A DNA stretch of 37,164 nt from a virus: IMG/VR virus record IMGVR_UViG_3300036820_000051, positions 1 through 37,164 of that record, one strand, 5' to 3'. Made by a program: the position numbers and the translations under genes. Below the pieces are notes generated by a model that was not told the origin of the DNA, made no database searches, and saw nothing but the letters and a program-made list of their open reading frames with translations. This document shows positions 3,866-37,164 of the stretch, one piece after another (the first letter of the stretch is position 1; every line of letters begins with the position of its first letter).

Positions 3866-4054
3866 GTGAAACCACAAGACGTTAAAAATTATTACGGAAA
3901 CCAATACAAATTTAGAAAGGTAACGGGCATGTCATCTTCTACGTTAGGTAATTGGCTTAAATGGGGATTTGTCCCCGAGGATGCTCAATATAAACTTGAG
4001 CGGTTAACAAAGGGTGGATTGAAAACGGAATGGACGAACGATGCAGAAAAATGA
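3866..4054 (+). CDS. cro: Cro-like helix-turn-helix repressor
   Basis: A 62-aa protein with a small HTH (FRKVTGMSSSTLGNWLKWG) followed by PEDAQYKLERLTKGGLK. The latter closely resembles the P22 Cro signature in which a DA-Y-LE-T-GALK stretch follows the recognition helix. The start is GTG at 3866, ten bases after a very strong GGAGGAGG ribosome site. It is the first gene of the rightward early operon and sits next to twin 17-bp operators, so it probably represses both early promoters. No divergent CI-type repressor gene accompanies it, which is unusual for this arrangement. Confidence 0.8.
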   Translation: MKPQDVKNYYGNQYKFRKVTGMSSSTLGNWLKWGFVPEDAQYKLERLTKGGLKTEWTNDAEK

Positions 4055-5782: not shown

Positions 5783-6463
5783 ATGTCACATCAAGTACGC
5801 AAATTGCATAACCCGAAATCACATGCCCCAGCCGTTTATATTCCATGTTGGTTAATTCAAGTTTCCTCCACATTACTATCCTATGCCGCCAAAATTGTTT
5901 ATGGGCGACTATCTCAGTGGAGTACAACGAAATGTACGGTGCATAGAAGTCTTGACCAGCTTAGCCAAGAAATAGGTATGAATAGACGCTCGCTTGAACG
6001 AATCCTTAAAGAGCTTAGAAATGTGGATTTGATTGGCACTTATCAAGCCGAAGCCGGTGGCGTTAATCACTACCAATTTTATGACCACCCGTGGATGCAC
6101 GCGCCAATAAATGAACATCTTGTCTACCATGAAAGTTATCCACAGGCACATCCCGCAAAAGTTGTACCCCCCCGCGAATCTGCGGATACCCCCCCCGCAA
6201 CTTTGCGGGTACCTACCCGCGAATCTGCGGAACCTAAAATAAGAGAAATAAAAGTAAATAATAATAAAAGCTTTTGCGCTGACGCTTCAAAAAAGCCCAA
6301 AAGCGACTGGAAGGCAGAGAACGCCAAAGTGCATTCCTTTGCAGAAAGCAAAAACCAAATGGCGAACGAAGCCAAGCACATTGAAGAACACGAAGCAATC
6401 AAACGAGCGCCCATGCCAGAGAGTTTGAGGTCTCTCGTTAAAAATATAAGTCGTAGGTGCTAG
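5783..6463 (+). CDS. Winged-HTH replication initiator-like protein
   Basis: A 226-aa protein. Residues about 15-110 form a winged helix-turn-helix (LSYAAKIVYGRLSQW ... SLDQLSQEIGMNRRSLERILKELRNVDLIGTY) as in phage O-type and plasmid initiators. A Pro/Arg-rich linker (about 118-150) is encoded by the iteron repeats, and the tail is charged and helical (about 165-226). As in lambda O, the candidate origin lies inside the gene between the DNA-binding and C-terminal parts. It would bind the iterons and recruit the host DnaB system. A clear lambda P-like loader is not seen, though the next gene overlaps in position. ATG 5783 follows TAGGAGACGG. Confidence 0.75.
   Translation: MSHQVRKLHNPKSHAPAVYIPCWLIQVSSTLLSYAAKIVYGRLSQWSTTKCTVHRSLDQLSQEIGMNRRSLERILKELRNVDLIGTYQAEAGGVNHYQFYDHPWMHAPINEHLVYHESYPQAHPAKVVPPRESADTPPATLRVPTRESAEPKIREIKVNNNKSFCADASKKPKSDWKAENAKVHSFAESKNQMANEAKHIEEHEAIKRAPMPESLRSLVKNISRRC
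6136..6275 (+). other. Candidate replication origin inside the initiator gene
   Basis: In order: a perfect DnaA box TTATCCACA (6136-6144); a partial repeat CCCGCAA (6152-6158); three palindromic iterons with cores CCCGCGAATCTGCGGA (6171-6186), CCCGCAACTTTGCGGG (6194-6209) and CCCGCGAATCTGCGGA (6216-6231), spaced 22-23 bases, each preceded by TACC-type C-rich DNA; then a strongly A+T-rich segment (about 6232-6275) suitable for unwinding. This DnaA box, iteron and AT-rich order within an O-like gene matches the lambda origin plan and many iteron plasmids. Confidence 0.72.
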
Positions 6464-8445: not shown

Positions 8446-8913
8446 ATGACTCGGCGTAAAAATCCCGAGGATAAACTTAAAATGGGTCGCCCTCTCGAAT
8501 ATACCAAAGAGATGGGCGATTACATTTGCGAGCTAGTTTCCTCTACAGGATTTGGCTTATTGAAGCTGACAAAGCTCTACCCTGAATTACCCGACAAGAT
8601 AACTATTAACCGTTGGCGCTATCGCGTGCCTGACTTTCGCCACCAATACGCAATGGCAAAGATTGAGCAAGCTGATATTTTGGCTGAAGAATGCCTTGAA
8701 ATTGCAGATGATGATAGCGGCGATACCAAATTATCGCCCGATGGTTTTGAACTTTGTAACACCGAATTTATTGCTCGTGCGCGTCTACGCGTAGATACGC
8801 GTAAATGGCTGGCATCTAAATTGTTACCTAAACAATACGGGCAACAGGCTGAAGAAGTTAAGCCCGAAAACAAATCCATAATTGAAATGTTGATAGACAA
8901 ACTGGCGGAGTAG
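8446..8913 (+). CDS. terS: Terminase small subunit
   Basis: A 155-aa protein of the Sf6 gp1-like group. An N-terminal HTH (YICELVSSTGFGLLKLTKLYPELPDKITINRWRY) recognises packaging DNA. A central helical hairpin follows (FRHQYAMAKIEQADILAEECLEIADD), and the terminal signature is RARLRVDTRKWLASKLLPKQYG. The family forms rings that bind the pac site and hand DNA to the large subunit. It lies upstream of the large terminase with one small Cys-rich gene between. A recognition site may lie in or near this gene, as in Sf6 and P22, but I cannot pick it out. Confidence 0.9.
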   Translation: MTRRKNPEDKLKMGRPLEYTKEMGDYICELVSSTGFGLLKLTKLYPELPDKITINRWRYRVPDFRHQYAMAKIEQADILAEECLEIADDDSGDTKLSPDGFELCNTEFIARARLRVDTRKWLASKLLPKQYGQQAEEVKPENKSIIEMLIDKLAE

Positions 8914-9197: not shown

Positions 9198-10721
9198 ATG
9201 GATGAAGCAAAGTTGATTCGTGTGCTGAAGTCGCTGCCGCTCTTTGCTAAAAATTTTTTAATCATTCATGACAAGTCAGGTCGTGAATTAAAGTTTGAAA
9301 TGAACCGCGCACAGCTCTATGTTCACGAACGACTTGAGGCACAGCTACTGGCAACCGGTAAGGTTCGAGCCTTGATATTGAAAGGGAGGCAGCAAGGTGT
9401 ATCAACGTATGTACAAGCTCGATACTTTCAAAAGATTATTACAAAGCGTGGCAAGAAAGCATTCATTTTGACTCATTTGTCCGATGCTACAGCCGCCATA
9501 TTTGAGATGACAAAACGCTACAGCGAAAACGTAGACAGCTCCCTCTTTCCCACCCCTGATAAGAAAAACGATAACAAGCTGACGTATGATGGTTTGGGTT
9601 CGGGTTATCGTGTGGGCACAGCAGGCAGTGTTGAGATTGGTCGATCCATGACTAATCAGTATCTCCATTTGTCTGAATATGGATTTTATAAAGATGCATC
9701 CAGTATTAGCTTGGGATTGCTGCAAACGGTTGCCGAGATTGCTGATACTGAAATCATCAAGGAATCAACTGCCAACGGACAGGATAATGATTTCTATTCT
9801 GACTGGATGGAAGCGAAGAACGGCAAGACACGGTATCAGGCAATCTTTGTCCCGTGGTATTGGCAAGACGAATACTGCATTGATGATCCAGCATTCATTC
9901 CCAATGATGAGGAACGGGAGTGGCTTACAAAGTTTGGTGTAAATGGTTTGAAAGCGGGTCACTTAAACTGGCGTCGAATCAAGCTTCAAGATTTCAAGGG
10001 TGATTATGAGCAGAAATGTAGAAAGTTTCGTCAGGAATATCCGTTCACCGATGACGAAGCATTCCTTTCATCCATCACAGATACATTCATTCAGGTTGAA
10101 CACGTACAGAAAGCGCGTAAAACAATAGTTGATAGCACATCCGAATTGGTCATTGGTGTTGATCCAGCACGTATGGGTGATGACCGTATCGCAATCATAC
10201 GTCGTAAAGGTCGTAAGGCGTTCAAACTGGAAACGCATTACAATATTGATACGATGGAACTTGCGGGAATGATTAAACGAATCATAGAAAAGGAAAAACC
10301 ACGTAAGGTTTATATTGATTGCATCGGGATTGGTGCGGGTGTCGTTGATCGATTGCATGAATTGGGATATACCGATATTGTAGTTGGTGTAAATGTTGCC
10401 AGAAAAGCCGAGGAACCAAAACGCTACAAAAATGTGCGTGCTGAATTGTGGGATCGCACTCGCGAATGGCTGATTCAGGATATGGATGTAGAGATACCAG
10501 ACAGTGATGAGCTGCAAACTGATTTAACGATCTTTGGCTATAAGTACGATTCAAGTGATAAACTTGTGATCGAAGGCAAAGACGATATGAAAAAGAGAGG
10601 ATGTCTGTCACCGGATTGTGGCGAGGCATTGATGCTAACATTTTACGAAGGGGAATACGTATCAGAGGGCAGTTACCAGCCCACTAAATTACCAGAACGA
10701 CATGCAGGTATGCTGATTTAA
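9198..10721 (+). CDS. terL: Terminase large subunit (ATPase and nuclease)
   Basis: A 507-aa protein with the N-terminal packaging ATPase: Walker A as LKGRQQGVST (residues 61-70), a Walker B-like strand YLHLSEYGFY with E160 in the acidic position, and a coupling motif ESTANG (189-194). The C-terminal RNase H-fold headful nuclease has D322 (GVDPARMGDDRIAI), D374 (VYIDCIGIGAG) and D473 (SPDCGEALML). This organisation and the GRQQG-type Walker A match Sf6/P22-like TerL, consistent with headful packaging and with circularly permuted virion DNA. Confidence 0.95.
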   Translation: MDEAKLIRVLKSLPLFAKNFLIIHDKSGRELKFEMNRAQLYVHERLEAQLLATGKVRALILKGRQQGVSTYVQARYFQKIITKRGKKAFILTHLSDATAAIFEMTKRYSENVDSSLFPTPDKKNDNKLTYDGLGSGYRVGTAGSVEIGRSMTNQYLHLSEYGFYKDASSISLGLLQTVAEIADTEIIKESTANGQDNDFYSDWMEAKNGKTRYQAIFVPWYWQDEYCIDDPAFIPNDEEREWLTKFGVNGLKAGHLNWRRIKLQDFKGDYEQKCRKFRQEYPFTDDEAFLSSITDTFIQVEHVQKARKTIVDSTSELVIGVDPARMGDDRIAIIRRKGRKAFKLETHYNIDTMELAGMIKRIIEKEKPRKVYIDCIGIGAGVVDRLHELGYTDIVVGVNVARKAEEPKRYKNVRAELWDRTREWLIQDMDVEIPDSDELQTDLTIFGYKYDSSDKLVIEGKDDMKKRGCLSPDCGEALMLTFYEGEYVSEGSYQPTKLPERHAGMLI

Positions 10722-10745
10722 GATTGACACAGGAAGTTGTCAATC
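10722..10745 (+). other. Hairpin between large terminase and portal
   Basis: GATTGACA (10722-10729) pairs perfectly with TGTCAATC (10738-10745) around an 8-base loop that contains AGGAAG. It begins one base after the terL stop. An in-frame TTG (10737) lies at the loop edge. It may modulate portal translation or protect the transcript. Confidence 0.5.
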
Positions 10746-10784
10746 AACTTGGGAAAAGTTGATAAATATATACAAGGGACTGCC

Positions 10785-13190
10785 ATGGCCAAGGTGAACG
10801 AGAAAATTGCGCGTGAAGCGCGTATCGCGTATGAAAAATTCTACGCGAGTTTCAAACAAAATATTGATTTGTACCACATGATGCACACCTTCGTTTTGGG
10901 ATCGCAATGGTCTGACGAAGAAGAAGACGACATGATTAAGACGTACCGTAAGGTGCCTCTTACTGCAAACAAACTTGGCACAATGGCCAATGCATTGTTG
11001 GGCGAGCAACAACAAAATACTCCTCAATTACAAGTCGTACCGATGACCGGGTGTGACGAGAAAGTAGCGTCACTTCGTGAAGTCATCACGAAAGATATTA
11101 TGTTTTCAACGTCTGCCACGATTGCTTATCAGGTATCAGCAAGTCAGGCTGCTATTGGTAGTTACAGTGCGTATTGCGTGGGGACAGATTATTCGCATTC
11201 CAAATCCTTCAATCAGGATATTGAGTACTGGTATTTCAAGGATGCAACACGTTGCTATTGGGATGTTGGCGCCGAATCAATCAGTAAAACTGATGGCACG
11301 CTATGCGGTTACCTGTCACGCATGACTCGTACAAAGTTTCGCCAAGTTTATGGTAAAGAGATTGAAAAGCAAATCATGAAATCGAGCAGCATCGCAGCGC
11401 CCGAGGAAGAAGTGGCACTCGCTGTGCAGCCGAATGATTCCGGCAATCCGTTCATGTGGGCAGACGATGATTCAATCACCATCATTGATCATTATGTACG
11501 CAAGTTTGAAAAGGATACGCTATACAAACTATCAAACGGCAATGTCCTGAATCAGGAAGAAATGGACGAGCTGATTGATAAGTCCAAAGCGATTAATGCC
11601 CGTCATGCTGAAATAGATGAACGAATGCAGTATATGAGCATGGATGGAATGCCGCCGTCCGATGGGCATTTTGCAAGTGCTGGTGCAGATGCCGGTGATC
11701 TGGCAACACAACTTGCTCAAGCGGGTAAACCCCCAATGGGTCAGGGTCAACCCGATGAACAAAAGCAATCCTACAACCCACAAGGTTTTGGGATGGAAGG
11801 TGACCACGACATATTGCCACAGGATAAAGGCGTTGATGTCACACCTAACAAGCAAGTGACGCCCAACGAAGAAACAGAATCGGTTGATACGATGGTATTG
11901 TGGGATGAGGGTGAAATGGTTCGCATTGAAGAAAAGCGCCCATCCAAAAAACATAAGATTATTCATTACCGGATAGCAGGTGAATATGAGCTTGACAAGA
12001 CAGAGTTTCCCAGCGAGCAATTGCCCTTGGTTTTCGTTGACAATAACAGTTACTACGACAAAACGGGTCGGCAAATTACGCGCTCTTTCTTTGGTGATTG
12101 TCGCGATACGCAACGTTATATCAACTATTTACGCACACAATCAGCTTATATCCTGAAAGTGAGCCGATACGATCAATGGATAGGTTCAAAGAAAAATGTA
12201 ACCAGTCTGGATACGTCACGCAATTGGAAAGACCCAACATCAATTCAAGGAATGTTAACGTATGACGAATCACCTGAAGGAAACAAGCCCGAGCAAGTTA
12301 GACCGCCAGAATTGTCTCAATCCTTGTTTCAGCAATACGAACTTGCTATCCAAGACTTGTACACTTCTACAGGCTTGTACCCAGCTCGCATGGGTGATAA
12401 TGGAGACGAGGCATCCGGTGCTGCAATCGATGCCCGAACACGACAAGGCAGTTATGCAACGTATGTATTTTTTAACTCAATCAATCGTGCCATAGCAACA
12501 GGTGGGGAAATTGTTAATGAGATGATCCCGCGTGTATATGATACCGAACGCGTATTAACGCTCATGATGCCTGACAAGGGTATGAAGAATGTGACGATTA
12601 ACCGTGAGGCAGATGAATATGGCGAAAGCATTGAAAATGATATCCGAAAGGGAACGTATCAAGTCAGATTGAAGCCAGGCCCATCGTATGAAGGACAGAA
12701 AGAAGTCGCGTTGCAATCATTACGTGAAGTATTAAAAGCCGATCCAACATCATGGACATTGATTGCTGATCTTTTTGCAGCGAACTTGCCATTGTCTAAT
12801 ACGCTTGAAATTACCAATCGATTAAAGACTCGCGTACCGCCGCAAATCATTGAAGCGGGTAAGACAGGCGAAATGCCTCAACAGCAGGATCAAGGCCCGA
12901 CACCAGAGCAACAAGCTATGCAATTGCAGCAACAACAATTGCAACAGCAACAGCAATACCAACAGGCACAGATACAACTCAAAATGCAAGAGTTGGCAAT
13001 CAAGCAAAAAGAATCTCAAGCGGAAATTGAAATTGAGAAGATGAAACTTGAAATTGCCCAGCTCGAGCTGGCAGGAAGCATTGAGGAAAGCAAAATGCGT
13101 TTCATGGGCGAGGCTAACCGTACGGAAACAGATAGATCGATTGCGCACGCTGATAACTTGGTCAAAATTTTAACGCACAAGGTTCATTAA
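10785..13190 (+). CDS. Portal protein (P22 gp1-like)
   Basis: About 801 aa. The N-terminus (YHMMHTFVLGSQWSDEEEDDMIK, then VPLTANKLGTMANALLGEQQQNTP) and the later SFFGDCRDTQRYINYLRTQSAY region are typical of P22-type portals, which form the dodecameric DNA channel. A Gly/Met/Pro/Gln-rich insertion occupies about residues 285-375. The C-terminus is a long Gln-rich coiled coil, as in the P22 barrel. I prefer ATG 10785 behind ACAAGGGACTGCC. An upstream TTG (10737) would add 16 residues but has its ribosome site too close. Confidence 0.92.
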   Translation: MAKVNEKIAREARIAYEKFYASFKQNIDLYHMMHTFVLGSQWSDEEEDDMIKTYRKVPLTANKLGTMANALLGEQQQNTPQLQVVPMTGCDEKVASLREVITKDIMFSTSATIAYQVSASQAAIGSYSAYCVGTDYSHSKSFNQDIEYWYFKDATRCYWDVGAESISKTDGTLCGYLSRMTRTKFRQVYGKEIEKQIMKSSSIAAPEEEVALAVQPNDSGNPFMWADDDSITIIDHYVRKFEKDTLYKLSNGNVLNQEEMDELIDKSKAINARHAEIDERMQYMSMDGMPPSDGHFASAGADAGDLATQLAQAGKPPMGQGQPDEQKQSYNPQGFGMEGDHDILPQDKGVDVTPNKQVTPNEETESVDTMVLWDEGEMVRIEEKRPSKKHKIIHYRIAGEYELDKTEFPSEQLPLVFVDNNSYYDKTGRQITRSFFGDCRDTQRYINYLRTQSAYILKVSRYDQWIGSKKNVTSLDTSRNWKDPTSIQGMLTYDESPEGNKPEQVRPPELSQSLFQQYELAIQDLYTSTGLYPARMGDNGDEASGAAIDARTRQGSYATYVFFNSINRAIATGGEIVNEMIPRVYDTERVLTLMMPDKGMKNVTINREADEYGESIENDIRKGTYQVRLKPGPSYEGQKEVALQSLREVLKADPTSWTLIADLFAANLPLSNTLEITNRLKTRVPPQIIEAGKTGEMPQQQDQGPTPEQQAMQLQQQQLQQQQQYQQAQIQLKMQELAIKQKESQAEIEIEKMKLEIAQLELAGSIEESKMRFMGEANRTETDRSIAHADNLVKILTHKVH

Positions 13191-13209: not shown

Positions 13210-14169
13210 ATGAGTATAAGTAGTATTGATGATCTTTTGATGGGTACAGGTAATTCACAGCAAGCGACGACACCCGAGCATAAGGACAAACTGGAAAACG
13301 AAAAGGCACCGATTGAGGAAATGGATGCGGATGCACCCGAGTACGATACCGGTGATGATGCAGGAACCGATGAACCAGATAGTGAATTGGATGAATCAGA
13401 GAGTGAAGACGATAAGCCGGAGAAGAAAGCTGATTCGGAAGACGAAGCAGAGTTTGAGGAGGACGAGTACGGCAACAAGAAAGAACGCATGTCCAAAGGC
13501 ATGAAGGATCGCCTTGACCGCAAAGAGAAACAACATCAGCGTGAGATTGAACAGCGTGACTTTGAATTGCAACAACTTCGTCAGCAATTGGCCAGCAAGG
13601 GTGCAAGTCCTGATGTCCAGAAAGCCGCCGCTGACTTTGAGTATAATCCAAATGACGAATCATCATGGCAAGAGCAATTGACAGATTTCGTCAAGCAAAC
13701 CGTCAAAGGTATGCATTCTGATGAAGAACAAAAAACACGTGAGATACAGGAACAACATGCGCAACGTGAGTTCCACCAAAAATTCACGAAAGGCATGGAT
13801 CGGTTTACTGATTTCCGTGAAGTAGTCGGTGCTATGCCCATGAGAGATGCGATGACGTTATCCCTTCGTGCCATGGCCGATCCGTCTGCATTCATTTATG
13901 CAGCAAGCAAACGTCATCCACAGGAAATCGAGCGTATTTCAAAACTGGCAGACCCTTATGCGCAAATTGCTGAAATGGGCAAGCTTGAGGAACGTATGCG
14001 CCGAAACAAGCCGACAACCAAAGCACCCAGACCGTTGGGACGCACGCGTGAAGATGCAACCTCGAAGATAACACCTAAACAAAAAGACACGTCCGGCGAT
14101 GATTTATTGGCGAAAGCTGATGCTAAGCGCTTGGCAACAGTGAAAACACGACATAAGGCTAATCGATAA
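13210..14169 (+). CDS. Scaffolding protein
   Basis: A 319-aa protein placed between portal and coat, where P22 has gp8 (303 aa). The first 90 residues are very acidic, the middle is a long charged coiled coil (RKEKQHQREIEQRDFELQQL...), and the C-terminal 40 residues are basic (SKITPKQKD ... RLATVKTRHKANR), matching the helix-turn-helix by which P22 scaffold binds coat. It guides procapsid assembly and is expected to leave before DNA packaging ends. ATG follows GAGAGGGACAC. Confidence 0.85.
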   Translation: MSISSIDDLLMGTGNSQQATTPEHKDKLENEKAPIEEMDADAPEYDTGDDAGTDEPDSELDESESEDDKPEKKADSEDEAEFEEDEYGNKKERMSKGMKDRLDRKEKQHQREIEQRDFELQQLRQQLASKGASPDVQKAAADFEYNPNDESSWQEQLTDFVKQTVKGMHSDEEQKTREIQEQHAQREFHQKFTKGMDRFTDFREVVGAMPMRDAMTLSLRAMADPSAFIYAASKRHPQEIERISKLADPYAQIAEMGKLEERMRRNKPTTKAPRPLGRTREDATSKITPKQKDTSGDDLLAKADAKRLATVKTRHKANR

Positions 14170-14633: not shown

Positions 14634-15878
14634 ATGTCGAACCTATTTAGGGAAACTCAATACGTTCTGGATGACGTATTTGTACGTTTCTGGAACAGCT
14701 TATCTTTCGCAAGAACTTCAAACCGTAACCTCGAAGGTGATTTCAAAAACCTACGCTTTGCTACTGGTCAAACACTTGACTATCGTCTGGAAGAAAGATA
14801 TTTAGGCGGTGAAGGTGCAAGTGCAACATCCGAATCTCGCGTACAGGTCATCCGACCGTTAACCATTACCAAGCAATTCCGCATCATGCTCGAGTACACA
14901 GGGTTTAATCTGACCTTTGATCGCGCACGTGACGAACCTTACCTTGAAATGGCCAACGCACCGCGCGCAAAGCGCTTGGGTAATATGGTTGAACGCTTTA
15001 TTGCTAGTGAATTTCAAACCAAAACATACCAGGCCGTTGGTACACCGGGCGTTCCTGTAGACTTCAACACAATTCTAAGTGCTGATGCGTACATGACCGA
15101 ACTTGCAATTCCTGAAGATGGTAAACGTTATTCAGGTGTGGGACCTCGTATTGCCGCTAACCTTTCAAATGACCTTTACAACACATTCAACAACACGGTA
15201 AACACGGGCGCGTTGATTGATGGTTTCGTAGGTCACTTGTCCGGGTTTGACTTCTTCAAGACCAATTTCTTGACACGTCAAATAGCAGGTGCAGGTCAGG
15301 CAGGCGGTTCACCTCCGGCTGGATTCCTGTTGGGCGGAACAGTTACAAACGGCCCTATCACAGGTGGAAACACAATCAGCGTAACAGGCTTGGGTCAAGC
15401 ACCTGGAACAGTTGTTTTCCGCTTAGGCGATATCATTGAAATTGATGATGCAGCCGGTGTATTCATGGTCAATCCGTTGACCTATGAAGCATTGGAACAA
15501 CGTGCCCAGTTTGTTGTAACAGCCGATGTCGTTTCAGCCGATGGTAACACAGCAGATATTCCTGTTAACCCAACGATTGTTATTGATGGCGCACGCCAAA
15601 ATATTTCTGCCGCGATTCCAATGGGCGCTCAAATATTGCTGCGGGCTTCTCATAACGTATCTCTCGCCTATCACACTCAAGCTGTTGTGTTCGCTGCACC
15701 TCCCATTAAAGAATTGCGCGGTGGTGTTGAGGCAGTAACCCGTTATTCCGACTTGTACAAGTTGGCAATGACCTACTCCCTCGGTGCGGATATTCGTAAC
15801 TACGAACAGTTGGATCGTATCGACGTTATTTGCGGTGTTGCAATTAACCCGGAATTTGCGGTTCGTATTTGTTCGTAA
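14634..15878 (+). CDS. Major capsid (coat) protein, P22-coat-like
   Basis: A 414-aa protein in the P22 gp5 position, directly after scaffold and close to its length (430 aa). Recognisable parts are the N-terminal FRETQYVLDDVFVRFWNSL arm and a middle insertion rich in Gly and Thr (about 215-250). The C-terminal sheet has NVSLAYHTQAVVFAAPPIKELRGG and YSLGADIRNYEQLDRIDVICGVA, where P22-type coats carry the HTQAVVFA-like strand. It would form the T=7 shell. A strong AGGGAGAACAATA ribosome site and its own leader suggest high expression. Confidence 0.85.
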   Translation: MSNLFRETQYVLDDVFVRFWNSLSFARTSNRNLEGDFKNLRFATGQTLDYRLEERYLGGEGASATSESRVQVIRPLTITKQFRIMLEYTGFNLTFDRARDEPYLEMANAPRAKRLGNMVERFIASEFQTKTYQAVGTPGVPVDFNTILSADAYMTELAIPEDGKRYSGVGPRIAANLSNDLYNTFNNTVNTGALIDGFVGHLSGFDFFKTNFLTRQIAGAGQAGGSPPAGFLLGGTVTNGPITGGNTISVTGLGQAPGTVVFRLGDIIEIDDAAGVFMVNPLTYEALEQRAQFVVTADVVSADGNTADIPVNPTIVIDGARQNISAAIPMGAQILLRASHNVSLAYHTQAVVFAAPPIKELRGGVEAVTRYSDLYKLAMTYSLGADIRNYEQLDRIDVICGVAINPEFAVRICS

Positions 15879-16277: not shown

Positions 16278-17221
16278 TGTCTACGACGGTTCGAGACTTT
16301 GTATTTCAAATGTACCGGTTGATTACGGCATCCTCGCCCGTTGTACCGGAACATGGTGATGATCAGAAACTTGCAATACAGGTGTTGAACCAAATTTTAC
16401 AAAGCTATGCGTCAACTGGGTTGCTTCTAACGATTGCCAAAACGGTATCAGTTGATGTCAATTTGCCAGTGAAAGAAATCTGGTTTGTATCACCAGATTA
16501 TGTTGGGCCTGTTACGACACAACAGGAAACTGTCACCCTAACGGCTGTCTCTCCCAGTTTCAATGTGGCAGACGGTTCGATTTACAGTGTAGGTGATGGT
16601 GTTTCAGGTGGAGGGATTCCGCTGGGGACGAAGATATTAAGCATTGTAGTAAACGTGGTCACGATGACCATGAATGCAACGCTAACAGGTGCGAGTGTGT
16701 TGACATTCTCACATGAGATTGCAACACCAGACGTTGCGTATATCAGGGAAGGACGGCTTGCCAACCTTGATAGTGCATGGCTTGTCTTAAGCGGAGTTAC
16801 CTATCCGCTGATTGAGAAGTCCAGGGATGAATTCTTGGCGGCATGGAAATATGAACCTTTACAAGGTTTGCCGCGTTTTATTATTACTTTTCCCGATACG
16901 AATTTTGTCCGGGCGCAGTTATATCCTGCACCTAGCCAATTTTATACGTTTTTCTGCCGGGGGAAGTTTCAAAAGTTGCCACTGACTTCAAACGATACTC
17001 TGGATGGATTGCCACAGTATCAAGAGCTGTTTTTGCTTTATGCAGTGGCAAAGTATGTTTGCAAGTTTAAAGGTCGAAGTGGGGCATGGACGCAGGATTT
17101 AGAGGCTGACTATCGGGAACTTAAAATGCAGATGGAAGCTGCATCCGAAGTCAATCTCTCTATTGCCGGTGATGAGCAGTCATTATTGAATGGCGCGTGG
17201 CGTGTCAGGGCAGGTGTTTAG
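16277..17221 (+). CDS. Head-tail connector / tail accessory factor (P22 gp4-like)
   Basis: The N-terminus (TTVRDFVFQMYRLITASSPVVPEHGDDQKLAIQVLNQILQSYASTG) and C-terminus (LPQYQELFLLYAVAKYVCKFKGRSG ... ELKMQMEAA) follow the helical gp4 plan, which plugs beneath the portal. At 314 aa it is nearly twice P22 gp4 (166 aa). The extra length includes a small beta module (about residues 85-150, GDGVSGGGIPLGTKIL ... MNATLTGASVLTF) that recurs in the collar fibre protein. It is coupled to the gp10-like gene by a TAGTG overlap. Confidence 0.78.
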   Translation: MSTTVRDFVFQMYRLITASSPVVPEHGDDQKLAIQVLNQILQSYASTGLLLTIAKTVSVDVNLPVKEIWFVSPDYVGPVTTQQETVTLTAVSPSFNVADGSIYSVGDGVSGGGIPLGTKILSIVVNVVTMTMNATLTGASVLTFSHEIATPDVAYIREGRLANLDSAWLVLSGVTYPLIEKSRDEFLAAWKYEPLQGLPRFIITFPDTNFVRAQLYPAPSQFYTFFCRGKFQKLPLTSNDTLDGLPQYQELFLLYAVAKYVCKFKGRSGAWTQDLEADYRELKMQMEAASEVNLSIAGDEQSLLNGAWRVRAGV

Positions 17222-19014
17222 TGGCCGCGCTGGACAAGCAAGAGGTTGCCAAGATAGAGCAACTACCCATTTTTTGTTATTTCGACAAGCAGCGTTTTAC
17301 GCAATTTGGTGCGATGGATTGTGCCAACTGGTATGGCATTCAGGTTGAATCTGGTAAGAAAACACAAGCTTTGTACCCTGCCATGGGTCGTCAGCATGTG
17401 CGTTTCCTTAACCAGAATCGGCTTGTTTTTAATGCGCAGCCGCGTGTTGAGTTCAAATCGATAAATTATTTGTATGTGGTGGATGGTACAACCGTTTATC
17501 AATACGACAGATTCTATAACAGAAAAGTATTATCGATCAGTGTGTCATTGGGTACGCCCATTTGGTTTGCGACATTAGCCGTCGGCACGCTGGTTTATAA
17601 CATGATGACGGATGGCAACCATATATTCGTAATAAAAGAAGATGGTTCCAACGTCACAGCCGAGGTGGTTACCGATCCCAATGCTCCCGGTGGTGCAACC
17701 ACAGGTGGCAAACCTCTCTACGTTGCGGCGTTCGGTAACCGCTTCGTTGTAAGCGTAGAGAATACACCCGATTTTTACCTAAGCACGGTTAACCTGACGG
17801 GTACTGCGAATACGTACTTCACGATTAATGGTGCTGCGTTGAATGGTCGGGCATCCGGTGTTATTGGGCAATTTGCAGTATTACACAACCAGTTGTATAT
17901 CATGTGCAGTTTCACGACGGATGTTTGGGCAAATATCATTACCCAAATTACGGTTGGAAGTGTGACACGTGAATTTCCATGGAAACTGAATAGTTCATAC
18001 AACTTTGATTATGGTATTGCTGATCCGCGTAGTTTAGCGGTTGGATTTGGCATGATGGTGTGGCTTGCTCAAAATGAAGAAGGACTTGTGTCATTCATGA
18101 TGAGTAATGGTCAAACACCGCAGGATATCTCAAGCCAGGCGATTAACGTCTTGCTTGAAAACTCGACGCACCCAGACACGTTAAGCCCATTTTTAACGAC
18201 TGAAGTCGATGGGTTTTTGTATCAGTATGAGAACACGGTTTTTTATCGTGCAGCCGCTGGAACATTTGTTGGTTTTGGTGATTTGGATATTATTGATAAT
18301 GCGAATTCCATTGAATATAACTTTGAAACTACAAAATGGGGTCGCTGTATTGAATTGAATGGCGAGCGTAATCGCATACAAAAGCACGTTTATTTTAATA
18401 ATACGCATTTGGTGATTGTGCAGGATGATCCAGCCATTTATCAGATGGCAGGAAACATTTATCACAATGAACTTAGAAATCCTGATCAGCCAAATGAACA
18501 AGCTGATGATGCATTTTTAAAATTTCCAATGCGATATGAGTTGGTTACAAAACAAATTTTTCAGGATGATTATTCGGAGTTCGTCGATGAATATGTGGAA
18601 ATTGATTTCGTTTTCGGTAACAAAACTTTTTATAAGAGTTGCGCTCCTTTTCTTAACACTACGTTTATCGTTGGTGAAGATAGTACGCCGACAAACCCTA
18701 TTTATATGCTTACAGAGGATGATAAATACATTATTGCAGAAGGATCGAATACACCTTCTTTTGATGATAACCACTATTGTGCTTTGTTTAAGCCTTACCT
18801 TGAACTTTATTACTCTGACGATGGGGGAGAAACTTACCTCCCAGCAGACGTCCGGGAATTCTCTCCATTGGGTCAATATCGATGGCGGATGCGTTGGTAT
18901 GAATTGGGATGCTCAAGAAACCGATGTTACCGATTAGTGTGTGTGTCATCAGCCCCTATTGTGATTTTGGGCGCTGTGCGTAACACGAAACGTGTGAGCG
19001 GAGGTGCTAATTAA
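17221..19014 (+). CDS. Tail needle-hub / DNA stabilisation protein (P22 gp10-like)
   Basis: About 597 aa, following the gp4-like gene as gp10 follows gp4 in P22. The N-terminus (LPIFCYFDKQRFTQFGAMDCANWYGIQVESGKKTQALYPAMGRQHV) and repeated beta strands resemble a beta-propeller-like tail plug protein. It is longer than P22 gp10 (472 aa). GTG 17221 overlapping the upstream TAG is preferred over GTG 17197 because GGGCAGGTG lies at ribosome-site distance. It closes the channel after packaging. Confidence 0.78.
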   Translation: MAALDKQEVAKIEQLPIFCYFDKQRFTQFGAMDCANWYGIQVESGKKTQALYPAMGRQHVRFLNQNRLVFNAQPRVEFKSINYLYVVDGTTVYQYDRFYNRKVLSISVSLGTPIWFATLAVGTLVYNMMTDGNHIFVIKEDGSNVTAEVVTDPNAPGGATTGGKPLYVAAFGNRFVVSVENTPDFYLSTVNLTGTANTYFTINGAALNGRASGVIGQFAVLHNQLYIMCSFTTDVWANIITQITVGSVTREFPWKLNSSYNFDYGIADPRSLAVGFGMMVWLAQNEEGLVSFMMSNGQTPQDISSQAINVLLENSTHPDTLSPFLTTEVDGFLYQYENTVFYRAAAGTFVGFGDLDIIDNANSIEYNFETTKWGRCIELNGERNRIQKHVYFNNTHLVIVQDDPAIYQMAGNIYHNELRNPDQPNEQADDAFLKFPMRYELVTKQIFQDDYSEFVDEYVEIDFVFGNKTFYKSCAPFLNTTFIVGEDSTPTNPIYMLTEDDKYIIAEGSNTPSFDDNHYCALFKPYLELYYSDDGGETYLPADVREFSPLGQYRWRMRWYELGCSRNRCYRLVCVSSAPIVILGAVRNTKRVSGGAN

Positions 19015-19321: not shown

Positions 19322-20011
19322 ATGAGCTGGTTAGACGGTATTGGGAACATGTTTGATAGTTTTTTGAATCCACAAAAAGGATATCAAAAAGGCCAGGATC
19401 AACTTAATAAATACTATCGAGATGCTCAAGGCAATTTGCAGCCCTATAACGCGAATGGACAAAGTGCCTATGGTGATTATTCGGGTGCCATGAAGCGATT
19501 GCTCGATCCCGCTGCTTTAGAGGCTGAATGGACTAAGGGTTATAGCGAATCGCCGTCTGCCAAAAATGCGGAGGGAATGGCGCAAGAACATGGATTGGAT
19601 GCAGCAAGTGGTTTGGGTCTGATGGGTTCCAATACCGCGTTGAATGCGATTCAAGGTGGTACGACCCAAATCGGATTAGATGACAGACAAAATTATCTGA
19701 ATAACCTGATGCAGAAATACATGGCAGGCGCAGGTATCGCGGGTAATATCTATGGGACTGGTGCGAGTGCTGCAAGCAACATGAGCAATAATGCGATGAA
19801 CATGGGGAATAATTCAGCGCAGATGGCTTATGGCGAACAAAATGCACCGGGTGATTTATTTGGTAAGCTATTGGGAACCGGCATAAGCATGTACACCGGT
19901 GGTATGGGTGGCGGTGGTTTCGGAGGTAGCGCTGGAATGCCTGAATATGCAAAGAATGCCATTATGTCTAGCGGTGGTGGTGGTAATGGTTGGTCTTTTG
20001 GAGGTAGATAA
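19322..20011 (+). CDS. Candidate ejection protein 1 (229 aa)
   Basis: The N-terminus (SWLDGIGNMFDSFLNPQKGYQKGQDQLNKYYRDAQGNLQPY) and an Ala/Asn/Met-rich middle are typical of P22-type ejection (pilot) proteins. The C-terminus is strongly Gly-rich. The length equals that of P22 gp7 (229 aa), though I see no close sequence match. Ejection proteins are packaged inside the head and leave with the DNA to cross the periplasm. AAGGAGATGTGAT precedes the ATG, and the stop overlaps the next start. Confidence 0.65.
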   Translation: MSWLDGIGNMFDSFLNPQKGYQKGQDQLNKYYRDAQGNLQPYNANGQSAYGDYSGAMKRLLDPAALEAEWTKGYSESPSAKNAEGMAQEHGLDAASGLGLMGSNTALNAIQGGTTQIGLDDRQNYLNNLMQKYMAGAGIAGNIYGTGASAASNMSNNAMNMGNNSAQMAYGEQNAPGDLFGKLLGTGISMYTGGMGGGGFGGSAGMPEYAKNAIMSSGGGGNGWSFGGR

Positions 20012-27361: not shown

Positions 27362-27381
27362 AATATCCTATTTATGATAAA

Positions 27382-27407
27382 ATGCTCATCTTATATGGGG
27401 TGAGCAT
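27382..27407 (+). promoter_or_regulatory. Hairpin sequestering the endonuclease start codon
   Basis: ATGCTCA (27382-27388) pairs perfectly with TGAGCAT (27401-27407). The downstream arm contains the first two bases of the ATG (27406) and the ribosome site GGGG (27397-27400) lies at the loop edge. Such a structure would hold back translation until opened or bypassed by a shorter transcript. T4 homing endonuclease genes use comparable hairpins. Confidence 0.55.
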
Positions 27408-30875: not shown

Positions 30876-31248
30876 ACGAATTGACCACATTAATACAGTC
30901 AATTGGTTTAAGCATCATTATCCTGAACTCGATGATGATTTTCATCACTTCGCGAATGAGAGAAAGTGTAGTGTAATACAAGGCGCTTTATTGAAGCGTA
31001 TGGGTGTAAAAAGAGGCGTCGCTGATTTTTTTTTGGCCTTACCTCTAAACGGAAAAGCTGGTTTATGGGTCGAACTCAAAGTTGGTAAAAACAAACCTAC
31101 CAAAGAACAACAAGCCTTTTTGGAAAGAAAGGCGCAGCGAGGGTATGAGGCTGTTTGCGTGTGGGGAACTAAGGCTGCACGGGAAGCCATCAGCGCCTAT
31201 CTTAATGATTATGTTCCATGTAGAACAATTGCCTTTAAAAATACATAA
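30862..31248 (+). CDS. VRR-NUC domain nuclease
   Basis: A 128-aa single-domain protein with the PD-(D/E)XK arrangement of VRR-NUC enzymes: RGVADFFLALP (D55), GLWVELKVGKNKPTKEQQAFLERKAQRGYEAVCVWG (E71, K73, Q83/Q84). Stand-alone phage VRR-NUC proteins are held to be structure-specific (Holliday-junction-type) nucleases. It may trim branched DNA before packaging. ATG 30862 is the first start giving the family N-terminus. Its 3' end overlaps the converging methyltransferase gene by 40 bases. Confidence 0.87.
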   Translation: MRQHERIDHINTVNWFKHHYPELDDDFHHFANERKCSVIQGALLKRMGVKRGVADFFLALPLNGKAGLWVELKVGKNKPTKEQQAFLERKAQRGYEAVCVWGTKAAREAISAYLNDYVPCRTIAFKNT

Positions 31249-31952
31249 GCTATTTGTGGCACGATAGCATTTCCTAGGGATGTAATTCTGTCCAACCTAT
31301 TGGATAGCCCATCATTTTTTCGCATAAGGTCGGCATTAAATTCGAGCCAGTCTCTAGCTTGCATAACCTTCCAAGCGTTAGGGATGAGTTGTTTCCATTT
31401 TGGTTGTATTTCCTCCAAGTACCATTTTTGGTTTTCTTGTAAATATCGTGTTTCCCTATTATTGATCCCGTTCTCGCATCGCTTGCTGTCAAGGTTGGCA
31501 ATAATCCATAGCCGTTCCCTTTTATGCGGTGCTCCAATGAGACAAGCTGGTATAAGATACGCTGTCCATTGGTAGTTTTCTCCTTCCAAATCTTCAAGGA
31601 TTGAGTCAAGTAAGGGAACAATTCCAGGCACATTTTCCGCAATGATAAATTTAGGCCGGCACTGTTTGATAATTCGGAACATTTCAGGCCATAAGTATCT
31701 GTCATCCAAGAGTCCTTTCTTTTTTCCTGCCACGCTGAATGGTTGGCAAGGAAATCCACCAGTTAATATTTCCACTTCCTCATGGAAATTGAACGTCCTG
31801 ATATCATCATGAATGGGGACGTTCGGAAAATTTTTCGTTAATACTTTTTTGCAAAATTTATCTTTTTCTACGAATTGTATGGTTTGTATGCCAGCCCAGC
31901 GTGCAGCTAATGAAAAGCCGCCTATCCCTGAAAACAAATCCAGTAACTTCAT
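31209..31952 (-). CDS. DNA (cytosine-5) methyltransferase
   Basis: A compact 247-aa C5 methyltransferase with motif I LFSGIGGFS (6-14, SAM binding), motif IV GGFPCQPFS with catalytic C69, motif VI ENV (106-108), motif VIII GAPHKRERLW (140-149) and a terminal LGNAIVPQIA (226-235). The target-recognition region (about 150-220) is very short, so specificity cannot be guessed. Solitary phage enzymes of this type usually protect DNA from host restriction. It is transcribed away from parA from a shared repeat-bearing control region and contains a nested alternative frame of 161 codons. Confidence 0.92.
   Translation of the reverse strand: MKLLDLFSGIGGFSLAARWAGIQTIQFVEKDKFCKKVLTKNFPNVPIHDDIRTFNFHEEVEILTGGFPCQPFSVAGKKKGLLDDRYLWPEMFRIIKQCRPKFIIAENVPGIVPLLDSILEDLEGENYQWTAYLIPACLIGAPHKRERLWIIANLDSKRCENGINNRETRYLQENQKWYLEEIQPKWKQLIPNAWKVMQARDWLEFNADLMRKNDGLSNRLDRITSLGNAIVPQIAYVFLKAIVLHGT
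31274..31759 (-). CDS. Nested alternative-frame ORF within the methyltransferase gene
   Basis: A 161-codon frame on the same strand, shifted relative to the methyltransferase frame, lies wholly inside it. The product ends MPTLCEKMMGYPIGWTELHP and contains GNGYGLLPTLTASDARTG. I recall the paired signatures LLPTPTASD and MMGFPIGWTD from phage proteins encoded at cytosine methyltransferase loci. It has no evident ribosome site, so it may be either an overprinted gene or a frame kept open by constraint on the host gene. Expression is unproven. Confidence 0.35.
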   Translation of the reverse strand: MDFLANHSAWQEKRKDSWMTDTYGLKCSELSNSAGLNLSLRKMCLELFPYLTQSLKIWKEKTTNGQRILYQLVSLEHRIKGNGYGLLPTLTASDARTGSIIGKHDIYKKTKNGTWRKYNQNGNNSSLTLGRLCKLETGSNLMPTLCEKMMGYPIGWTELHP

Positions 31953-31965
31953 ACATCATCCTATC

Positions 31966-31994
31966 TTGACATCTATACATCTTGACATCATTAT
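31966..31994 (+). promoter_or_regulatory. parA promoter
   Basis: TTGACA (31966-31971), a 17-base spacer and CATTAT (31989-31994) form a strong sigma-70 promoter 33 bases before the parA ATG. The -35 and the spacer are themselves the two perfect ATCTTGACATC repeats, so repeat-bound RHH protein would repress it. Confidence 0.72.
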
Positions 31995-31999
31995 GTCAT
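31972..31999 (-). promoter_or_regulatory. Methyltransferase promoter
   Basis: On the minus strand ATGACA (31999-31994), a 16-base spacer and TATAGA (31977-31972) lie 20 bases before the methyltransferase ATG. The elements interleave with the parA promoter and its repeats, suggesting joint control. Confidence 0.5.
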
Positions 32000-32026
32000 T
32001 ACATCAAGACACTAAGGCATCATAAT

Positions 32027-32659
32027 ATGATAATTTCAATACTGAATCAAAAGGGCGGTACGGGTAAGACGACGCTTGCAGTCAACATGACTCGTGAGTA
32101 TACCAAGCGTGGGCTTAAAACATTATTGGTGGACTCTGACAGCCAAGGATCAGCGTTACGCTGGCATGAGGAGTCAGGCGGCGACCTAATCGATTTGACA
32201 TGCTTACCTGTCACCACCTTGGATAAGGACGTGGTGAAGTTTAAAGACCGCTACGAGCGAATTATCATTGACGGCATCCCACGGGTGTCACCTCTGACTG
32301 TTTGTGCCATCAAAGCCGCTGACGTGGTTTTGATCCCGGTACAGCCGTCCCCGTATGATGTATGGGCAACTGAAGATTTGGTACGTTTGGTTCAGGAACG
32401 AATTGAGATTACGGAAGGTAAACTCCAAGCTGCTTTTATTATTTGTCGTCGAATTAAAGGTACAGTATTAGGGCGAGAAATTGTGGATCAACTGAATGTC
32501 TTCACATTTCCAGTGTTTGTTGCAGGAACCTGCCAGCGCCAAGAATATGCAAAGTCGGTACAAGAAGGTCGTACTGTCTGTGAAGTCTATACGGAAGCCA
32601 CTCGAGAGATTGCAGAAATTGTTAGTGAATTGGAGGAATGCTACTATGGCAAAAATTGA
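32027..32659 (+). CDS. parA: ParA-family partition ATPase (small, type Ib-like)
   Basis: A 210-aa protein starting directly with the deviant Walker motif ([15 protein letters not shown]9-T16), then [11 protein letters not shown] (D36, D38) and the IIIDGIPRV strand (D82), and PVQPSPYD. The absence of an N-terminal HTH domain and the short length match the ParF/Soj-like type Ib class that works with a small RHH partner. It would move and segregate the circular genome. ATG 32027 behind CTAAGGCATCATA is preferred over an upstream non-ATG start. It overlaps the next gene by 14 bases. Confidence 0.9.
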
Positions 32660-32849
32660 GTCAGGTGTAGAATTTGACAAGAAAAAAAATCACGATAAGA
32701 TGGCAAAAGGAATGGTTTCAATTCAGCAATATACTTTGCGTATTCCTGCTAATCTTTATAAAGCAGTTAAGCTTAAGATGGTAAAAGAAAACAAGAAACT
32801 TCGGCCTATCTTAATTGAAATGTTGGAGAAGTACATCAAGACATCATGA
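32646..32849 (+). CDS. Ribbon-helix-helix partner of ParA (ParG-like)
   Basis: A 67-aa protein with a polar, flexible N-terminal 25 residues, then an RHH fold: beta strand IQQYTLRIP, helix [14 protein letters not shown] and helix [13 protein letters not shown]. The mobile tail plus RHH dimer is the ParG design, in which the tail stimulates ParA ATPase and the ribbon binds direct repeats. It overlaps parA by 14 bases, as expected for a partition cassette. Likely ligands are the ATCTTGACATC repeats at 31963-31989. Confidence 0.8.
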
Positions 32850-32884
32850 TGCCATGATGTTAATATGATTTTTATGGATATCTA

Positions 32885-34043: not shown

Positions 34044-34273
34044 ACCCCCTAGAATCTCAGAGTCTCTCGGTACATGGTCGAATTTACGATTTCACCGGTT
34101 TACCGCTCTCCGCTTTCGCTTTGATCTTTAAAATAAGGGACAGCTAGTTCGGAGTTGCACCGACACTCGCTAGGGTTTCCCCTAACTTAACCCATCCTAT
34201 GGGACTGCCATAAAAGGCCTCGAGCGGGAATCCTTGGATATCATATGCGCAAGACTACACCAAAGCCTATTTA
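34044..34273 (-). ncRNA. Candidate structured non-coding RNA
   Basis: A 230-base stretch without a protein-like frame, higher in G+C than its neighbours and rich in short hairpins. Read on the minus strand it contains CCCAU-AGG-AUGGG (34203-34191) and UAGGG with a GAAA loop (34184-34171). It also has a GCGAAAGC mini-hairpin, a CGGUAAACCG stem, and interleaved GAGU/ACUC and UCGG/CCGA pairings that could form a pseudoknot. Repeated GNRA-type loops favour the minus strand, immediately downstream of the helicase gene. I do not recognise the family: it is not tRNA, tmRNA or RNase P RNA by eye. Confidence 0.45.
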
Positions 34274-34281
34274 TTATAGGC
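34265..34281 (-). terminator. Hairpin at the helicase stop codon
   Basis: GCCTAT (34265-34270) and ATAGGC (34276-34281) pair around a 5-base A+T loop that contains the helicase stop. On the minus strand it is followed by only three Us, so it is a weak terminator. Readthrough would transcribe the structured region downstream. Confidence 0.5.
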
Positions 34282-36028
34282 ATTCTACGTCTACTTGTAT
34301 AGCCTTCTCAGGGTAAACAAAATGTTTTTTAACTACTTTGAGAGTCCCATTTTCCAGTTCGATACATTCAATTTGACTTGGTGAATATAATTCTTTTTCT
34401 TCAATAACATTTTTCAAATATATAAAATTTTGTAATCTGGAATAGGCGTCATGAGGATTTATAAAATGTTTTTTAACAAAATAATGATAGAAAAAACGAA
34501 TTGCTTTATCTGTGCTTAATAAAAATTTCTCACCAGCGTATTTCAAACCATTATAGTTAGGAATGGTATATAAGACATGAAATAGTGGTGATCCGTTATT
34601 CATGGACAGGATATATTCTGTTTGATCAACAGGAAAAACCACTCTGTTTCTTTTTGAAGCAGAATTTTGTAAATTACGATTAGGGTCGATTAATTCTGTA
34701 TGGCATGACCTGCACTGCCGTGAAACAATATCATTTTTTGTTCCACATTCTGGACAATCTTTCCACTCAAACCAATGGTCACAGCGTTTATTGTCCTTGG
34801 TTCCGATGCATCTACGCGACATTAACGTATTCATTGAATTACATTCAAAGCATTCAATGCAATATTCGGGGTCGTTCGGGTCTTTTGGTTGAATGGCTTT
34901 ATTGATAACAGGGTTATCGATATCCCCGTGTCGGTCAAGATTGCCAGCATAATCCAGAATTAGACAATCTGTTTTACCATCTGACAGGCGCAACCCTCGA
35001 CCCAAGCACTGCATATACAATACAAGCGATTCTGTGGGGCGTACGAACACGATTGTATCAAAGGAGGGTACATCTACCCCTGTACATAGAACATTGACGT
35101 TAACCAGGTATTTGATGATTCCAGCACGTGCTTGTGTAATGTAAAGCTCTCGCATTTTGTCTAACGTGTCACCAGTAATAATCGCGGTTTCCTCTCGCGG
35201 TAACCATTCTGCGCATTCGTGACAATGCTTTATGCTGGATGCAAAGATAAATGCGCCTTTGCGATCTTTAACAATCTCAGCGACTTCCGCCATGATTTTA
35301 CCAGTAAGACGCGGCTGTTTCTGTACAGCGTTATCAAGATCAACAGAATTAAACTTTCCCATTGAATTAATTTTTAATTCGTTGAAATCATACTGAAGTG
35401 TCTTTTCGCAGTAACCCCATATTGGTGGAGTTAAATAAGTATTTTCAATTAGCCAATCAGCCGTAATTGCGCATACTTCTTCTTGAAAAAATAGTTTATC
35501 ACCAACGATTGTATGGCCTTTGCCGCGATAAGGCGTTCCAGTTAAACCTACGAAACGAAGTTTATGGCCGAGCGTTTGCGCGTATATACCATAATGATTG
35601 AATATGCGCATGTACGTCGTTCCTTTATCATTAAAGTTGATGTTGTGGCATTCATCAACAATGATAAGGTTAAACGGAATTTTTGAAAGTTTACCCTCTC
35701 TTTTAATACTTCCCCGAACTGACATAGGAGATGCAAAAATAATAGGTTCGGCAATATCTCTCATACCAAGTGATGCGCAAAAAATTCCTGCGTGTCCACC
35801 TTGTTGCTTATAAGTATCAGCGTTCTGACGAATCAGCGTGCTATTCATTGTAAGACAAAGCGCCCGCCATCCAGCACGCTCTACAAGAAGCAGTATTGAA
35901 GCTATACAGACTGATTTTCCAGCCCCGACCGACATATTAACTAATAAAGGATGATCAGTTTCTTTTAATCTTTTTTTTAAAATATCAACAACCTCTTGTT
36001 GATATGGGCGTAATATTTTAGCATTCAA
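34274..36028 (-). CDS. SF2 DEAD/DEAH-type helicase with zinc-ribbon insertion
   Basis: A 584-aa helicase: Q-like LRPYQQEVV, Walker A SVGAGKS (33-39), motif II DECH (125-128), motif III GLTGTPYRG (about 157-165) and motif VI QCLGRGLRLS. These match SSL2/RAD25-like phage helicases. A four-pair Cys region follows (about 385-450, CIECFEC, CPECGTKNDIVSRQCRSC), likely zinc ribbons, then a C-terminal domain of unknown fold. It belongs at the end of the leftward early operon and probably remodels recombination or replication intermediates. It overlaps the upstream HNH gene by 11 bases. Confidence 0.9.
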   Translation of the reverse strand: MNAKILRPYQQEVVDILKKRLKETDHPLLVNMSVGAGKSVCIASILLLVERAGWRALCLTMNSTLIRQNADTYKQQGGHAGIFCASLGMRDIAEPIIFASPMSVRGSIKREGKLSKIPFNLIIVDECHNINFNDKGTTYMRIFNHYGIYAQTLGHKLRFVGLTGTPYRGKGHTIVGDKLFFQEEVCAITADWLIENTYLTPPIWGYCEKTLQYDFNELKINSMGKFNSVDLDNAVQKQPRLTGKIMAEVAEIVKDRKGAFIFASSIKHCHECAEWLPREETAIITGDTLDKMRELYITQARAGIIKYLVNVNVLCTGVDVPSFDTIVFVRPTESLVLYMQCLGRGLRLSDGKTDCLILDYAGNLDRHGDIDNPVINKAIQPKDPNDPEYCIECFECNSMNTLMSRRCIGTKDNKRCDHWFEWKDCPECGTKNDIVSRQCRSCHTELIDPNRNLQNSASKRNRVVFPVDQTEYILSMNNGSPLFHVLYTIPNYNGLKYAGEKFLLSTDKAIRFFYHYFVKKHFINPHDAYSRLQNFIYLKNVIEEKELYSPSQIECIELENGTLKVVKKHFVYPEKAIQVDVECL

Positions 36029-36765: not shown

Positions 36766-37080
36766 TTATTTAAAATTCACCGGTCGCATTTCGCCCAAGT
36801 TACGCTTAATTCCATCCAAAACCGTTTGATAAGAATCAGCAACAATATGCATTACTTCCGTTGCGCTAACTTGGTGATGACCTGTTTGTAAATATTTATC
36901 GATATTTTTGATTGATAAATTTACCATATTAAATAGTGCTATTTCCATGAAGTCATGAATGCCGCCGCGTTTTCCGTGATCAAATTTGGCTAGGAAATCT
37001 TTTAAAAATTGGTGTGCGTTTAGCACCTCTTCGCGAGCTGTGATTTCGGTGATTCCATTTGGTTTGCTTAATTCATTCAT
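36766..37080 (-). CDS. Hypothetical protein spanning the circular junction (104 aa)
   Basis: Function not recognised. Helical product with ITAREEVLNAHQFLKDFLAKFDHGKRGGIHDFMEIALFNMVN and a C-terminal TVLDGIKRNLGEMRPVNF. The ATG (37078-37080) lies in the terminal repeat and overlaps the stop of the gene at 36-236 when the circle is closed, so the leftward operon is continuous through the junction. Confidence 0.7.
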   Translation of the reverse strand: MNELSKPNGITEITAREEVLNAHQFLKDFLAKFDHGKRGGIHDFMEIALFNMVNLSIKNIDKYLQTGHHQVSATEVMHIVADSYQTVLDGIKRNLGEMRPVNFK

Positions 37081-37164
37081 TATTTTTGTCCTTCAAAATA
37101 AGTTCTAATATTTGTCTACACCGTATTACTGCCATAAGATAAGATGCTCCCGGAGTAGCATATT
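37038..37164. repeat. Terminal direct repeat, copy 2 (circularity overlap)
   Basis: Exact copy of 1-127. See the first copy: this is the redundant end of a circular assembly and not a second genomic repeat. Confidence 0.95.

Follow-up and report, generated by a model that had tools for sequence, protein, structure and literature searches.

How is a short-tailed phage in which no integrase is found passed on to both daughters of its host cell? The question is raised by a parA gene, an overlapping RHH-type gene and short direct repeats in the window, by which we mean the whole stretch of DNA analysed, a 37,164-bp virus record from an uncultured short-tailed phage. A first-pass annotation of the same sequence took this locus for the partition cassette of a temperate phage kept as a circular plasmid. 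Our best reading, to which we give a probability of roughly two in three, is that the ParA/RHH cassette is the low-copy plasmid partition system of a complete P22-related podovirus that is inherited as a plasmid. The features on which the argument draws are located in Table 1.

Table 1. Positions of the principal features in the 37,164-bp window.
Feature	Position	Strand	Basis or remark
P22 Cro-family regulator	3866..4054	+	PF14549 E 2e-8; no divergent CI/C2-like repressor found
O-like replication initiator gene, holds predicted origin	5783..6463	+	PHROG 270 E 6e-7, O-like families
Predicted lambda-type origin in O-like gene	6136..6268	+	DnaA box 6136-6144, 3 x 23-bp iterons 6165-6231, AT-rich tract 6237-6268
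Small terminase, Sf6-like	8446..8913	+	PF20901 E 4e-27
Large terminase, highly divergent	9198..10721	+	weak Terminase_6C and PHROG matches; relatives 58-91% identical
P22-like portal	10737..13190	+	PF16510 (P22_portal) E 2e-90; profile vs P22 gp1 E 2e-19
Scaffolding protein	13210..14169	+	PHROG 8865 E 6e-15
Major coat, P22-coat related	14634..15878	+	PHROG 283 E 6e-36; profile vs P22 gp5 E 9e-6
gp10-like head closure protein	17197..19014	+	PHROG 578 head closure Hc3 E 5e-21
gp7-like DNA ejection protein	19322..20011	+	PHROG 598; profile vs P22 gp7 E 2e-5
Upstream array, nine in-phase 8-bp repeats (ACATCNNN type), predicted operator/centromere, parS-L like	31953..32026	+	overlaps parA promoter
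Promoter-like TTGACA-17-CATTAT, inside upstream array	31966..31994	+	10/12 consensus positions; consensus match only
parA, small ParF-like partition ATPase, 210 aa	32027..32659	+	NF041546, PHROG 164, PDB ParF/ParA, dN/dS
RHH DNA-binding partner (ParG/omega-like, predicted), 67 aa	32646..32849	+	PHROG, PDB omega, AlphaFold, conserved in relatives
Downstream array, 8-bp repeats ACATCAAG ACATCATG ATGCCATG ATGTTAAT, parS-R like	32833..32864	+	at/after RHH stop codon
Assembly overlap	37038..37164	.	127-bp exact copy of window 1-127, closes 37,037-bp circle

The predicted partition cassette

The parA open reading frame spans 31982–32659, with its likely ATG at 32027 and a Walker motif, KGGTGKTT. Its product scores 213.8 bits against NCBIfam NF041546 (‘ParA family partition ATPase’; cut-off 180), matches PHROG 164 (E 3e-41) and has as its best PDB neighbours an entry named ParA and TP228 ParF (4dzz, E 2e-28). 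The protein is small and lacks an N-terminal HTH, as in Type Ib (ParF/ParG-like) systems; it is 45–48% identical to ParA of many plasmids, and its closest counterparts among well-known cultured phages are those of VP882, VHML and phiHAP-1 (41–46% identity). With a dN/dS of 0.05–0.08 (about 0.05) at a near-saturated synonymous distance, ParA is under strong purifying selection.

The partner gene, which overlaps parA by 14 bp and is conserved in relatives, is short and poorly covered by family libraries. It had no match in Pfam and a weak one to the PHROG ‘Arc-like repressor’ (E 3e-4), and a profile of 16 RHH relatives came nearest in the PDB, though weakly (E 0.017), to the omega repressor, which itself works with a partition ATPase. 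An AlphaFold model (mean pLDDT 70.5) shows an extended stretch followed by two helices; Foldseek returned nothing below E 0.001 for it (best E 3.5, with Arc at rank 3). The weak Arc and omega profile matches and the model agree in suggesting that the 67-aa product is an RHH protein, the type of partner encoded beside parA in Type Ib systems.

Upstream of parA, nine octamers in phase fill 31953–32024, five of them beginning ACATC. With 46 of 72 positions matching, they form the 80-bp segment with the strongest 8-bp periodicity anywhere in the window, and the 90 bp upstream of parA reach z = 4.3 against dinucleotide shuffles, with none of 500 equally high. The downstream array is shorter and ranks only fifth among the window’s lag-8 segments. 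An upstream array stands in the same place in most relatives. When matches are summed over 17 ParA loci, the upstream flanks have a peak in match fraction at a lag of 8 bp (0.51) and another at 16, and the downstream flanks likewise peak at lag 8 (0.56); one locus among the 17, L005, gave no upstream signal. The genome’s top lag-8 segment adjoins the cassette in eight of the nine long ParA-positive genomes examined (G000, G001, G005, G006, G007, G008, G009 and a single-cell contig), and in those eight both flanks lie within the top three such segments, the window excepted. ParA-less genomes have weaker lag-8 segments, located elsewhere. A short-repeat array as predicted centromere/operator is a further Type Ib trait, and the earlier view that a ParA, an overlapping RHH partner and direct repeats over their promoter make up a complete partition cassette is borne out by the above-cut-off NF041546 match and by the nine octamers lying over a promoter match.

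The ninth genome, G004, is an exception in that its top lag-8 segment is a similar array elsewhere, its upstream array ranking third. This array (record positions 27356–27435, in L030), the strongest of the ATC type in G004, lies away from the ParA cassette and is possibly a further centromere site, comparable to the supernumerary parS of mycobacteriophage Miko. In the window, a cytosine-5 DNA methyltransferase gene (31209–31952, minus strand), which only some relatives have, runs divergently to parA. As its start codon lies directly against the first octamer, the upstream array may control the methyltransferase as well.

Array motifs and the RHH partner

By their predicted DNA-reading strand, the RHH proteins fall into two classes, QQYTLRI-like proteins paired with ACATC-type repeats and KPYLFNI-like ones paired with TATATTTATATA-type repeats, with L014 and L016 intermediate between them. 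Array similarity correlates with RHH identity (r 0.59) and not with ParA identity (r -0.02). Upstream and downstream arrays match better within one genome than between genomes (0 of 10,000 permutations), also within the window’s RHH class (p 0.004) and as a trend in the other class (p 0.08); the loci compared share ancestry, and these permutation values overstate their independence. That the array motif tracks the RHH protein rather than ParA supports the RHH protein as the putative binder of both arrays, and the two RHH/array classes would be expected to correspond to compatibility groups.

The same division could mean that ParA/RHH is kept for superinfection exclusion, for incompatibility with related phages or plasmids, or for phage gene regulation, with no role in segregation. 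RHH proteins and arrays split into two classes while ParA stays similar, as expected of incompatibility types, and RHH dN/dS is 0.24–0.43 between classes as against 0.07–0.17 within a class. We nevertheless consider such a role very unlikely, since ParA is strongly constrained and belongs to a partition equivalog, two flanking arrays are the layout of a partition system, and incompatibility itself follows from partition.

Under the preferred reading of a plasmid partition system, we infer array binding, segregation, repression of the lytic cycle and a plasmid copy number. ParG/omega-like RHH dimers would coat both flanking 8-bp arrays, the upstream one doubling as an operator through which the operon represses itself, and nucleoid-bound ParA-ATP would move the RHH–DNA complexes apart, leaving a copy in each daughter cell. 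Replication would start at a lambda-type origin within the O-like gene, and the cassette would fill the role of an integrase, the genome being inherited as a circular plasmid in the non-lytic state.

A circular genome with a P22-related virion

Closure by end overlap is seen in five of nine relatives selected through ParA and in several ParA-less ones, with overlaps of 123–141 bp; the 127-bp overlap of the window also recurs in several relatives. These lengths are those of common assembler k-mers, so they indicate circular or circularly permuted sequence and not true terminal repeats. The window is a complete circular genome of a P22-related podovirus. A P22-type headful phage would give an identical circular assembly, and a closed circle is by itself no proof of a plasmid; lytic phage DNA that is circularly permuted or replicating yields circular contigs too. 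The proposal of a phage kept as a circular plasmid gains from the cassette, the missing integrase and the closed circle, but the last of these fits a headful-packaged, circularly permuted phage equally.

As in a phage-plasmid, virion and packaging genes are accompanied by a plasmid maintenance function, the partition cassette; the origin is of phage type. A P22-type portal and coat, as in a P22-like podovirus (Lederbergvirus), are present, and the window shares with the P22/Sf6 group (Lederbergvirus and kin) the order TerS-TerL-portal-scaffold-coat-gp10-like-ejection, an O-like initiator and Cro. Unlike in that group, profile matches to P22 are confined to portal, coat and gp7, and the coat is 28% identical to the ‘P22 coat protein’ of VvAW1. 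The P22/Sf6-type head genes named in the first-pass annotation are thus recognisable in the portal and the Sf6-like small terminase, but kinship with P22 is distant, the coat and ejection proteins being far removed. Among cultured phages, those closest in coat and portal infect Vibrio, Thalassomonas, Shewanella and Rhodoferax, and these we take to be mainly lytic isolates.

The predicted origin lies inside the initiator gene, as in lambda and as in P22, where it is within gene 18. DnaA boxes show no enrichment by count over the window (4 against 5.9 expected), so it is the conserved position beside iterons that argues for this origin. Many relatives, ParA-positive and ParA-less alike, show a similar layout about as far from the cold-shock gene, and their iteron sequences differ. 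A DnaA-box/iteron origin, offered earlier as a sign of plasmid life, is therefore present but not diagnostic: being lambda-type and common to cassette-less relatives, it could be used in a plasmid state but is not peculiar to one.

Integrase, repressor and the non-lytic state

Profile searches, in which positive controls worked, found no tyrosine integrase (PF00589) in the window or in any of the 33 viral records searched, and no serine recombinase/resolvase (PF00239) in the window or in any ParA-positive viral record tested, in keeping with the first reading of a phage with no integrase. The P22-type integrase and C2 repressor of Lederbergvirus were not found in the window, which in its want of an integrase and a CI/C2-type repressor differs from the P22/Sf6 group. 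The sole record with a serine recombinase is the ParA-less genome G028 (L159, G028:C1:12682-13083; PF00239 E 4e-38, 221-aa open frame), where it is perhaps a multimer resolvase or an integrase and a possible alternative maintenance system.

A CI/S24-type repressor (HTH_3 above cut-off, Peptidase_S24) was likewise absent from the window and 32 related viral records, and the P22-Cro-family gene is kept in most relatives. As neither a tyrosine-integrase route nor a repressor can be recognised in the clade, it is from the partition cassette that we infer temperate growth. The word ‘temperate’, as applied to this phage at first pass, needs that qualification, and our best reading leaves the quiescent state unexplained.

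The phage may instead not be classically temperate, the cassette keeping copies in both daughters in a carrier or pseudolysogenic state, with no CI-type repressor and in a clade that is otherwise virulent. The lack of an HTH_3/S24 repressor and of a tyrosine integrase throughout the clade, the one serine recombinase of G028 aside, would suit such a state, as would the cassette’s clean absence from a close complete relative, G012, and the presumably lytic character of most of the nearest cultured relatives. However, phages often have repressors that go unrecognised, and a good number of the small genes here are without a family; the P22-Cro-like gene or an unassigned open reading frame could be the repressor, and the partition genes of phages studied so far accompany prophage maintenance (PMC7157519). 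On balance, a carrier state seems unlikely to us, and inheritance as a plasmid in the non-lytic state remains our preferred reading.

Distribution of the cassette and candidate host

A coat-protein search of viral contigs returned at least 149 relatives. ParA is encoded in only four of 27 long records from this search, all four already found through ParA; the other 23 are also without a tyrosine integrase, which suggests that the clade is largely non-integrating, perhaps virulent. When ParA presence is mapped on a tree built from coat, gp4-like and gp10-like proteins, four changes are required, and well-supported branches force at least two of them. In G012, a closed genome of the same subclade as the window, the methyltransferase gene stands directly before the gene that lies downstream of the window’s cassette, with no ParA and no RHH gene. 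In G007 and G009 the cassette accompanies virion genes of quite another kind (portal about 24–28% identical). Given this patchy occurrence and the association with different virions, the cassette is an exchangeable accessory, carried by a minority of a large virion clade.

Patchiness, with its two or more forced gains or losses on the virion tree, could also be expected if the phage were an ordinary one whose plasmid cassette had been acquired by accident or was decaying. The constraint on ParA disfavours decay, as do the intact reading frames and co-varying arrays of the loci compared, and we give that explanation hardly any credence. More tentatively, and with odds well against it, one may suppose a widespread environmental clade of podoviruses, lacking tyrosine integrases and known repressors, in which the cassette is gained and lost time and again, partition alone making a Legionellales phage a heritable plasmid-like element in the absence of classical lysogeny control.

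Legionellales enter through a scan of a species-genome collection, which gave three matches. The best of them is BMAG01000039.1, a contig of 36,484 bp whose two ends overlap exactly over 55 bp. It carries the cassette and, at 91% identity, stands closest to the window on the virion tree. The contig belongs to the single-cell genome BBSC-SA01 of a soil bacterium, which is 92.7% complete with 0.7% contamination and was placed in Legionellales by GTDB-Tk (PMC7453286). The other two matches (Alphaproteobacteria, Bacteroidales) are metagenome bins and were set aside as host evidence. Other contigs of BBSC-SA01 had no coat match and no close ParA match, and 35 other genomes of the host’s order had neither coat nor ParA at the thresholds used. 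The circular contig gives direct evidence, though from one case, for the presence of such a phage as a separate circle in a Legionellales cell; a lytic infection or a co-captured particle may also explain it. A search for the same circle as an extrachromosomal contig in a host, suggested at first pass, gave one candidate case, that of the nearest relative, and the host of the window phage is probably a member of Legionellales. To our knowledge, few phages are known from this order, and the window would add a P22-related phage-plasmid type with a candidate host there. With close relatives that carry the cassette and others that lack it, one can ask how a phage is altered by having partition genes.

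Relation to known partition systems and phage-plasmids

The marine phages VP882, VHML and phiHAP-1 have a different virion and are linear, telomere-ended prophages with a protelomerase. TP228 parFGH (ParF/ParG/parH) and pSM19035 delta/omega likewise combine a small ParA, an RHH partner and arrayed short boxes (PMC7308502), but these systems belong to bacterial plasmids and have another box sequence, whereas here arrays lie on both sides of the operon. RedRock, a cluster A mycobacteriophage without an integrase, has a ParB and two parS loci that each consist of eight 8-bp repeats, and is present at 2.4 copies per cell; its cassette stabilises plasmids and its prophage is extrachromosomal (PMC7157519). 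Common to RedRock and its kin and to the window are a ParA with a DNA-binding partner, two 8-bp direct-repeat loci, no integrase, and a partner more diversified than ParA (PMC7157519). Those phages, in contrast, are siphoviruses of actinobacteria from a temperate cluster, and their cassette stands where sister phages have an integration cassette, whereas the cassette-less sisters here are without a tyrosine integrase; cluster A ParA is only about 31–36% identical to that of the window. Group 10 of the cryoconite ‘phage-plasmids’ also consists of environmental circular genomes, of 37–38 kb, with ParA and/or ParB, but toxin-antitoxin genes are reported for it, and an integrase in some members (PMC4490671).

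Comparison with phage-plasmid catalogues was proposed in the first-pass annotation as a check: none of the well-defined types of a 2026 catalogue (AB, P1, N15, SSU5-related and cp32) is described there as P22-like (PMC12977533), and PLSDB gave no match to the window’s portal or coat. P22’s own portal, used as a control query, did find plasmid records with P22-type portals. Five of these were examined (Arsenophonus paNv_CH9, Acinetobacter pAS51-4, E. coli pB1.H1.18.c6, pEM03-18-08_2 and 0H24 unnamed4) and, like the window, they are circles, of 37–40 kb, with P22-type heads. Unlike it, all five encode a tyrosine-type/site-specific integrase and none lists ParA; they are most likely excised temperate phages and were rejected as precedents. 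Plasmid inheritance is known from other phages and was not found here for this kind of virion, and the window phage is probably a new type of phage-plasmid.

Further observations on the window

Searches over the whole window found no tRNA and no Rfam family. A 230-bp non-coding stretch between convergent genes (34044–34273), in which no repeats were found, resembles a structured RNA by eye. The gene at 34274–36028 (minus strand) encodes a RadD/YejH-like repair helicase (NF053632 E 3e-108, under its cut-off) that is kept in most of the clade. A 104-aa protein without a known family, encoded at 36769–37080 (minus strand), shows 45–84% identity across most of the clade, ParA-less members included. 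Two endonuclease VII-type HNH genes (27382–28017, plus strand; 36018–36764, minus strand) are missing from most relatives and are probably mobile insertions.
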